From Dactylosporangium siamense (lineage in GTDB: Bacteria > Actinomycetota > Actinomycetes > Mycobacteriales > Micromonosporaceae): 64,000 bases of DNA. The DNA lies in the NCBI RefSeq assembly GCF_016862795.1, contig NZ_BONQ01000026.1, forward strand, positions 1-64,000, written 5' to 3'. Below, piece after piece: positions 27,021 through 29,326 of this stretch. Numbering within the stretch: the stretch's first letter is position 1; the number at the start of each line of letters is the position of its first letter. The position numbers and the translations under genes were made by a program. The notes beneath the pieces are model-generated. The model was not told where the DNA came from and did no database searches. It saw only the letters and a program-made list of their open reading frames with translations.

Positions 27021-27085
27021 GTTTCAACCCATTGGTTGAAACGGACGATAGCCCGCCGACACCAGGCCGTCAACCACGAGGTTGA
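27021..27085. promoter_or_regulatory. Tandem ArsR-type operators
   Basis: GTTTCAACC-CATT-GGTTGAAAC (27021-27042) is a perfect 9-bp inverted repeat with a 4-bp spacer. A second site TCAACC-ACGA-GGTTGA (27070-27085) has the same half-sites and spacer length, 46 bp away. Both are upstream of the ArsR-type gene, the first 10 bp before its ATG. Confidence 0.65.
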
Positions 27086-27242: not shown

Positions 27243-27671
27243 TCAGCCGGTCGGGGTCAGGCCGGTCGAGGCGCGGAACGAGCCGTCCATCTCGAAGGGC
27301 ACCGACTCGTGCTCGTGCGTCACCAGCCAGCGGCCGTCGACGCGGCGCAGGCCCAGCGTCACCCGGAACCACAGGGTGAAGCCCTCCGTGGAGCCGCGCG
27401 GCACGGCGGTCAGGCGGTCGAGGCTGGTCGCGAATGCCACGTCGCCGTCCGCGGTGATCTCCAGCTGGGTGACCTCGCGGCGCGGCGGCGCCTCGAAGCC
27501 GGCCATCCAGGCGTCCAGCGCTGCCGGGGTCTGCCCGTCGACGGGCTGGCGCAGCGGCGGAGCGAGGCTGAACTCGACGTAGCCGGGCGCGTAGTGCGAC
27601 AGGATGGCCTTGGCGTCACCTTCCTGCAGCAGCGCGGCCTTGCCCTCGATGACTTCCCGGATCTCCTCCAT
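27243..27671 (-). CDS. SnoaL/SgcJ-like NTF2-fold protein
   Basis: 142-residue cone-shaped NTF2-like protein: AALLQEGDAKAILSHYAPGYVEF at the N-terminus and WFRVTLGLRRVDGRWLVTHEHESVPFE at the C-terminus are typical of DUF4440/SgcJ proteins. ATG 27671 follows AAGGA. It diverges from the YCII-ECF42 genes across a symmetrical promoter, so it is a likely ECF42 target. Ligand or reaction unknown. Confidence 0.8.
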   Translation of the reverse strand: MEEIREVIEGKAALLQEGDAKAILSHYAPGYVEFSLAPPLRQPVDGQTPAALDAWMAGFEAPPRREVTQLEITADGDVAFATSLDRLTAVPRGSTEGFTLWFRVTLGLRRVDGRWLVTHEHESVPFEMDGSFRASTGLTPTG

Positions 27672-27697
27672 GACATTTCCTTCCCTTCTCTTTGCCT

Positions 27698-27734
27698 GGG
27701 ATGTCGAAGCTGGGCCGGCCGGTTTCGACATCCC
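27698..27734. promoter_or_regulatory. Mirror-image ECF42-type promoter
   Basis: GGGATGTCGAA (27698-27708) and TTCGACATCCC (27724-27734) form a perfect 11-bp inverted repeat with a 15-nt spacer. Each arm contains TGTCGA, which I recall as the ECF42 -35 element; the CGACA of the opposite arm falls at -10 spacing. The one site could therefore drive the SnoaL-like gene leftward and YCII-ECF42 rightward. Confidence 0.55.
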
Positions 27735-27758
27735 GGCAAGAGAGAATGGAGAGCAGTC

Positions 27759-28130
27759 ATGAAGTACCTGATCCTGATCCAGTCCAACCCGCAGTCCCTC
27801 GCCGTCTGGGAGACCCTGACCGAGCAGCAGCAGACCGACTTCGGCATTGGTCACGTCCGGCTCTCCGACGAGATGCGGGAGGCCGGCGTGCTCGTCGTCA
27901 GCGAAGGCCTCGGCGACCCGGCCCTGGCCACCCAGGTCTCGGTGCGCGACGGCAAGACGATCACGTCGGACGGGCCGTACGCCGAGGTCAAGGAGCACCT
28001 GGCCGGCTTCTACCTGATCGACGTCGCGGATCTCGACGAGGCGGTCGCGTGGGCCGCGAAGGCGCCGGACGCCGCGCTCACCCGGGTCGAGGTGCGCCCG
28101 ATCCTTGATCTGAGCACGTGGGAGGTATGA
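27759..28130 (+). CDS. YCII-related (DGPF) protein
   Basis: 123-residue ferredoxin-like-fold protein with the motifs MKYLILIQSN, TSDGPYAEVKEHLAGFYLIDVADLDEAVAWAAKAP and VEVRPI of the DGPF/YCII family. These small proteins accompany ECF42 sigma factors and may be their regulators or targets. The stop overlaps the sigma-factor ATG (ATGA). ATG 27759 lies 25 bp after the symmetrical promoter. Confidence 0.92.
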   Translation: MKYLILIQSNPQSLAVWETLTEQQQTDFGIGHVRLSDEMREAGVLVVSEGLGDPALATQVSVRDGKTITSDGPYAEVKEHLAGFYLIDVADLDEAVAWAAKAPDAALTRVEVRPILDLSTWEV

Positions 28131-29326
28131 CCGGGCTGCCGGACCTGCTGCGCGAGTGCGCGCCGCGGGTCCTGGCCGCCGTGGTGCGCCGTTACGGCGA
28201 CTTCGAGGCCTGCGAGGACGCGGTGCAGGAGGCGCTGATCACCGCCGCCCGGCAGTGGCCGGAAACCGGCGTCCCGGAGCACCCGCGGAACTGGCTGATC
28301 ACCGTGGCCGGTCGCCGGCGGGTGGAGCTGCTGCGCAACGAGACGGCCCGCCGGCGCCGCGAGGAGGCGATCCAGCACGAGCCCGCGCCGGAGGTCCGCG
28401 GCGACGACGAGCTGGCGTTGCTGCTGCTGTGCTGCCACGCCGCGCTGAGCGTGCCGGCACAGATCACGCTCACCCTGCGAGCGGTCGGCGGGCTCAGCAC
28501 CGCGGAGATCGCCCGGGCACTGCTGCTGCCGGAGGCCACCGTCGGCCAGCGGATCAGCCGGGCCAAGCAGCGGATCCGCGACACCGGCACCCGGTTCGAA
28601 CTGCCCGCGCCGGACGAGCTCGGCGAGCGACTCACCGCGGTCCGGCACGTGCTGTACCTCATCTTCAACGAGGGCTACACGGCCAGCTCCGGCGACACGC
28701 TGAACCGGGTGGAGCTGACCCGGGAGGCGATCCGGCTGACCCGGCAGCTGCACCGGCGCCTGCCGCACGACGGTGAGGTGGCCGGACTGCTCGCGTTGAT
28801 GCTGCTCACCGACGCGCGCCGGCCCTCGCGGACCGGGCCGGACGGCACCCTGGTCCCGCTCGCCGAGCAGGACCGGGACCGCTGGGACGCGGCCGCGATC
28901 GCCGAGGGCGTCGCGATCATCACCCACGCGCTGGCGCACGCCCCGATCGGCCCGTTCCAGCTGCAGGCCGCGATCGCGGCGGTGCACGACGAGGCCGCAC
29001 GCGCCGAGGACACCGACTGGCCGCAGATCCTCGCCCTGTACGGGATGCTGCACGCCCTCGCCCCGAGCCCGATGGTCACGCTGAACCGGATCGTCGCCCG
29101 GGCCATGGTCGACGGCCCGGAGGCCGGGCTCGCCGCGCTGGACCAGGTCGCCGGGGACCCGGTGCTGGCCCGGCACCACCGGACCGCGGCGGTGCGGGCC
29201 CACCTGCTGGAGCTGGCCGGCGACCAGGCCGGGGCGCGGGAGCAGTACCGGCTGGCGGCCCGGCGCACGCTCAGCCGGCCGGAGCAGCGTTACCTGGAGT
29301 CCCGGGCCGCGCGGCTGCACCTATGA
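28127..29326 (+). CDS. ECF42-group RNA polymerase sigma factor
   Basis: 399-residue sigma factor. Region 2 (RRYGDFEACEDAVQEALITAARQWPETGVPEHPRNWL) and region 4 (LPEATVGQRISRAKQRI) occupy the first 170 residues. A long C-terminal extension (YLIFNEGYTASSGD and TPR-like helices ... VTLNRIVARAMVDGPEAGLAALD) is diagnostic of ECF42, where it controls activity without a classical anti-sigma factor. GTG 28118 is an alternative start. Coupled to the YCII gene. Confidence 0.92.
   Translation: MTGLPDLLRECAPRVLAAVVRRYGDFEACEDAVQEALITAARQWPETGVPEHPRNWLITVAGRRRVELLRNETARRRREEAIQHEPAPEVRGDDELALLLLCCHAALSVPAQITLTLRAVGGLSTAEIARALLLPEATVGQRISRAKQRIRDTGTRFELPAPDELGERLTAVRHVLYLIFNEGYTASSGDTLNRVELTREAIRLTRQLHRRLPHDGEVAGLLALMLLTDARRPSRTGPDGTLVPLAEQDRDRWDAAAIAEGVAIITHALAHAPIGPFQLQAAIAAVHDEAARAEDTDWPQILALYGMLHALAPSPMVTLNRIVARAMVDGPEAGLAALDQVAGDPVLARHHRTAAVRAHLLELAGDQAGAREQYRLAARRTLSRPEQRYLESRAARLHL

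Follow-up and report, generated by a model that had tools for sequence, protein, structure and literature searches.

The direction in which a promoter is read is usually fixed because its −35 and −10 elements differ. A palindrome lying between two divergent genes of Dactylosporangium siamense raises the question of whether one short site can instead be read by a sigma factor in both directions. The site is found in the 64,000-nucleotide stretch of contig NZ_BONQ01000026.1 that we analyzed, referred to here as the window.

The palindrome and its surroundings

GGGATGTCGAA (27698–27708) and TTCGACATCCC (27724–27734), separated by 15 nt, form a perfect 11-bp inverted repeat, exactly as given in a preliminary description of this DNA, and the placement proposed there, between a SnoaL-like gene and YCII-ECF42 genes, agrees with Pfam (PF13474, PF03795, and PF20239). 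The divergent gene on the minus strand (27243–27671, start at 27671) encodes a SnoaL_3 (PF13474)/NTF2-like protein of 142 aa. On the plus strand, a YCII-domain gene (PF03795; 27759–28130, 123 aa) overlaps the start of a gene for a 399-aa sigma factor (28127–29326). This protein combines Sigma70_r2 and Sigma70_r4_2 domains with a long C-terminal extension (DUF6596, PF20239), and its gene adjoins the YCII gene, features that are typical of the ECF42 group; the extension of ECF42 sigma factors has been described as TPR-like (PMC8999054, PMC6180224). In NCBIfam, only the general sigma70-ECF superfamily scored above cutoff, and the closest named relative, from Dactylosporangium vinaceum, is 87% identical. 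The 12.7-Mb host genome contains 27 YCII and 21 DUF6596 matches, that is, many paralogous ECF42-type operons in one genome.

Two promoters are predicted within the palindrome (27698–27734): a rightward promoter on the plus strand (27702–27729), with its −35 TGTCGA at 27702–27707 and its −10 GTTTCGAC at 27722–27729, and a leftward promoter on the minus strand (27703–27730), with its −35 TGTCGA at 27730–27725 and its −10 GCTTCGAC at 27710–27703. The −35 is intact in both directions, and the leftward −10 is a slightly better fit than the rightward one. A 29-bp site can hold two complete promoters because the ECF42 −35 (TGTCGA) and −10 (TCGAC) are near reverse complements. When mismatches are permitted, the repeat widens to two 32-nt arms (27682–27713 and 27719–27750) that are 78% complementary. 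Mirror symmetry extending far past the promoter into both 5′ leaders is seen in the window (27682–27750) and in the related loci L186 (perfect arms of 24) and L193, a few cases in which one side looks like a copy of the other.

Symmetry alone is weak evidence, since repeats of this length sit at eight distinct places in the window (14 hits, compared with a mean of 2.2 and a maximum of 6 in 30 simulated windows), and palindrome length was rejected as an argument. What distinguishes the site is how well it matches a matrix of ECF42 promoters from other loci, not the repeat itself. Instead of a promoter, a perfectly symmetric site could be an operator bound by a dimeric regulator, and an ArsR-type gene (start 27010) lies downstream of SnoaL; however, the letters and spacing of the palindrome match the −35 and −10 of a promoter family present in other phyla, a separate, different palindrome accompanies the ArsR-type gene, and we regard the operator reading as highly improbable. 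That second palindrome, GTTTCAACC-n4-GGTTGAAAC at 27021–27042, is just upstream of the ArsR-type gene and is probably the operator for the regulator encoded there; a further TCAACC-n4-GGTTGA copy is found at 27070–27085.

We give equally little credence to the idea that the repeat forms an RNA hairpin or terminator and thereby keeps the two operons insulated from each other. The intergenic region does have a strong predicted RNA fold (−50.8 kcal/mol, z −6.6), but a terminator scan, an Rfam search, and folding left a hairpin, a terminator, or a known RNA family unsupported: there was no terminator-like site and no Rfam match at the gathering score, the element lies between gene starts rather than gene ends, and perfect arms of at least 10, measured outward starting at the inner edge of the core, are present in only 15 of the 51 related loci described below.

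Fit to ECF42-type promoters

The promoter matrix was derived from 79 genome loci (L075–L153), of which 33 were used and 46 dropped under a strict rule demanding, in the expected zone, TGTCGA with C[GT][AT]C 17–18 nt beyond it, its training sites thus having been picked for TGTCGA. The matrix consensus is ATGTCGA-N13-GCT[C/T]CGAC. A looser rule, demanding only GTC at the −35 together with a −10 match, yielded sites in 48 of the 79 loci, the first −35 base being T in 46 of the 48. TGTCAA replaces TGTCGA in 10 of these 48 sites (L101, L109, L110, L116, L127, L133, L135, L142, L145, and L146), which suggests subgroup-specific −35 recognition.

The window palindrome contains the elements of an ECF42-dependent promoter (a TGTCGA-like −35, 17–18 nt, and a CG[A/T]C −10), and the complete motif is present on both strands of one DNA stretch, the symmetry that marks bidirectional promoters, here seen at the level of sequence. 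It ranks first on each strand of the 64 kb, with 18.2 bits on the plus strand and 21.5 bits on the minus strand, the runners-up reaching 14.5 and 13.0. The mean best score of 40 simulated single strands was 14.4, with at least 18.2 reached in four and at least 21.5 in none. Together with the retention of both arms in relatives described below, these ranks support the earlier proposal of a TGTCGA −35 on each strand with the −10 supplied by the opposite arm. TGTCGA had been put forward as the ECF42 −35, and it is indeed close to the TGTCGG-N17-CGTC of promoters of the Sinorhizobium meliloti ECF42 sigma factor RpoE10 (PMC6180224); the motif of the palindrome also precedes ECF42-type operons in other bacteria. 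A search of 27400–28000 revealed no sigma-70-type promoter.

A genome scan with a loose motif had been proposed, and a scan of this kind proved unselective: TGTCGA-N15-20-CGACA gave 84 matches versus 27 for the reversed control pattern, and the loose motif therefore does not define a regulon. In the window, the loose pattern TGTCGA-N14-22-CGWCA has two hits, which are the single site on both strands, with 1.3 expected by chance. The strict motif gave eight genome matches versus three for the control, two of the eight being the window palindrome. A strict ECF42-type motif elsewhere in the host genome (L245, G000:C136:1956–1982, minus strand), with an ATG ~40–50 nt further on, is possibly another ECF42 sigma target.

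Conservation and direction bias in relatives

The YCII protein was searched in 354 genomes of the family, 64 of which matched at E ≤ 1e-28, and from each of these we read the best locus. Divergent SnoaL was detected by tblastn in 49 of the 64 loci and, with L159 and L165 from other families of the order, this gave a set of 51 relatives, whose common ancestry means that the counts below are not independent samples. SnoaL was undetected in 15 loci: L158, L160, L162–L164, L192 (contig ends), L198, L207, L231, and L233–L238.

Both arms carry GTCGAAnC in 45 of the 51 relatives, the full core being missing from one or both arms in six. Across the 51 loci, the columns of this core (arm positions 1–6 and 8) hold 1.68–2.00 bits of information, the spacer columns are intermediate at 0.46–1.40, and the flanks, from 7 to 20 bp beyond the hexamers, have 0.04–0.75. 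In the 33 control promoters, A and C never occur together at the mirrored −10 positions, and the right arm never contains TTCGACA. A score of 12 bits or more is reached rightward in 50/51, leftward in 50/51, and both ways in 49/51 relatives; at 16.2 bits, the lowest control score, the numbers are 35, 46, and 32, and the opposite strands of the controls score from −12.5 to 10.2. Mirrored covariation is modest, the first hexamer position (position 0) being paired in 23/51 relatives versus 25.0 expected, with eight mirrored double changes at positions −1 to 6 (four at −1, three at 0, and one at 6). Because the covariation argument is weak, our reading relies on the fact that both arms are conserved, and their retention alongside the gene pair in most relatives suggests that one site serves both genes.

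The two directions are not equally well preserved. TGTCGA is found leftward in 41/51 relatives, rightward in 23/51, and both ways in 19/51, the window being among the 19, and the mean score is 22.2 bits leftward versus 17.4 bits rightward. CGTCGA rightward is combined with TGTCGA leftward in 22 relatives; three have CGTCGA both ways, three have TGTCGA rightward with CGTCGA leftward, and L201 has TGTCGA rightward with TGTAGA leftward. The first rightward −35 base is thus C in 25/51 relatives, versus the T of nearly all sites elsewhere, and rightward activity may be weak in those 25 because of it. A single base pair provides both the first −35 base of one strand and the base that follows the −10 of the other; a T in the first role suits the −35 and places an A in the second. 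Such an A is absent from all 33 controls and is present after the CGTC −10 of S. meliloti SMb20475 (PMC6180224). We infer that this outer base pair may decide how strongly each direction is used. Bias in favor of the payload gene would agree with the behavior of S. meliloti RpoE10, which raised expression of SMc01149-SMc01148 and not of its own YCII-rpoE10 operon (PMC6180224).

The same bias could mean that the site is effectively a one-way ECF42 promoter for SnoaL, its rightward half a by-product of a near-palindromic motif and the YCII-sigma genes mainly transcribed from elsewhere. The leftward advantage in mean score and in TGTCGA frequency speaks for this, as does the failure of RpoE10 to raise its own operon, and we nevertheless think it unlikely: TGTCGA is intact both ways in the 19 relatives that include the window and only rightward in three others plus L201, a motif faces the YCII-sigma genes at general ECF42 loci (33/79 under the strict rule and 48/79 under the looser one), and one locus retained the rightward half after its divergent gene was lost. 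In that locus, L198, whose YCII protein is 85% identical, a same-direction ORF encoding a membrane-protein-like product occupies the place of SnoaL, the leftward half is destroyed (3.9 bits), and the rightward half is kept (12.1 bits). L207 also has a same-direction ORF upstream and an altered leftward −10 (10.6 bits), the same change affecting the rightward −35. These two loci speak for damage to the leftward half once the divergent gene is absent, a pattern contradicted by L238, which has a good leftward half (20.4 bits) despite a same-direction upstream gene identified with a crude gene caller. This GC-based caller missed the window SnoaL and was used only where named; its tally of general ECF42 loci (30 codirectional and 18 divergent of 48) carries no weight here. 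L231 and L237, which have same-direction ORFs, lack a site.

A tree built from 64 sigma proteins places 26 of the 29 reciprocal sites in one clade of 31 rows with support of 100/100, the exceptions being L113, L006, and L007, and the reciprocal label needs at least seven changes on the tree. Among the 26, L129 only weakly exceeds the reciprocal threshold (10.2), probably by chance; L007 (14.3) and L006 (13.3) exceed it as well, and both are distant paralogues. L006 (G000:C49:36689–40021) is a paralogous YCII locus of the D. siamense genome with a weaker near-palindromic site (13.9/13.3 bits), and its divergent ORF resembles RibD/dihydrofolate reductase by eye. The divergent gene varies within the clade, being either SnoaL or SMP-30/gluconolactonase-like: a symmetric site faces SMP-30-like genes in L160 (Pfam), L234 (sequence likeness), and L233, and in L236, which has an SMP-30-like Pfam match, the site is good leftward only. 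In L166, whose sigma gene is not in the tree, a symmetric site faces an MFS transporter gene. L163 and L165 combine a symmetric site with a YCII gene and lack an adjacent ECF42 gene, and it is therefore suggested that the sigma factor may act at a distance on a target reachable in trans. Among the matches listed, the nearest sigma gene in genome G022 is ~23 kb away on the same contig, and the 12 listed for genome G060 are all on other contigs; the closest sigma relatives in G022 and G042 (L249 and L248) have their own symmetric sites upstream.

The mapped start of S. meliloti SMc01149 lies 8 nt past the −10, as counted on the printed letters (PMC6180224). In 10/51 relatives, the SnoaL ATG follows TCGACA at a distance of exactly 7 nt and CGAC at 8 nt, and because the latter equals the mapped spacing, a leaderless SnoaL mRNA with the A of the ATG as +1 is predicted for them. 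The distance from TCGACA is 8 nt in L199 and 27–75 nt in the remaining 40. Placed by the same 8-nt rule, the window starts would be at 27738 (A) on the plus strand and at 27694 or 27693 on the minus strand, ~44 bp apart, with predicted leaders of ~21 nt on the YCII side and ~23 nt on the SnoaL side.

Proposed reading and known systems

We consider it probable that the palindrome acts as a single reciprocal bidirectional promoter for an ECF42-type sigma factor, most likely the product of the gene immediately to its right. In one orientation, the holoenzyme would take TGTCGA of the left arm as −35 and CGAC of the right arm as −10 and start the YCII-sigma transcript at ~27738; in the other, the same arms would swap roles, with the SnoaL start at ~27694. 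The two binding modes should exclude one another, and one sigma factor would therefore coactivate both operons, with small asymmetries, chiefly in the outer base pairs, determining the ratio. The bidirectional ECF42 promoter proposed in the preliminary description is well supported by sequence comparison. Its "autoregulated switch" goes further than the evidence: RpoE10 did not activate its own operon in the experiments reported (PMC6180224), which is evidence against routine autoregulation, and at the window locus autoregulation is no more than a possibility.

On balance, we also favor the existence of a conserved class of reciprocal promoters, in which an ECF42 clade has firmly tied the operon of its sigma factor to a divergently transcribed payload gene (SnoaL, SMP-30-like, or another), and one outer base pair serves as the direction dial. 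With −35 and −10 nearly interchangeable, one polymerase-sized site would coregulate two operons in an evolvable ratio, a natural and simple system for studying the choice of polymerase orientation and the origin of bidirectional promoters. The divergent gene joins the predicted targets of the poorly understood ECF42 sigma factors. A literature search of partial coverage for ECF or palindromic bidirectional promoters returned none relevant by title or start of abstract, which does not establish absence from print.

Within the ECF42 group, the promoters of S. venezuelae are a further case beside those of S. meliloti. The S. meliloti RpoE10 targets SMc01149 and SMb20475 have in common with the window site a TGTCG-type −35, 17 nt, and a CG[A/T]C −10, and the YCII gene precedes the sigma gene in both systems (PMC6180224). 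The RpoE10 promoters listed there are one-way, whereas the window site carries a full promoter on each strand because its −10 is the reverse complement of its −35. Symmetry-based bidirectional promoters of bacteria (Warman/Grainger; PMC12825309, PMC10268837) are similar in having a pseudosymmetric site and divergent starts, and mutually exclusive polymerase binding has been described for them (PMC12825309). Their symmetric housekeeping −10 is common to both directions, with starts mostly 18 bp apart and also 10 or 23 bp apart (PMC12825309, PMC10268837), whereas in the window −35 and −10 swap roles, the sigma factor is of ECF type, and the predicted starts are ~44 bp apart, which places the site outside a class with a shared −10 and starts 10–23 bp apart; ECF is not mentioned anywhere in the main text of PMC12825309. 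The back-to-back ECF42 promoters at L081 and L126 likewise face the YCII-sigma genes and the opposite direction, but they are two separate sites side by side, whereas the window has one shared site.
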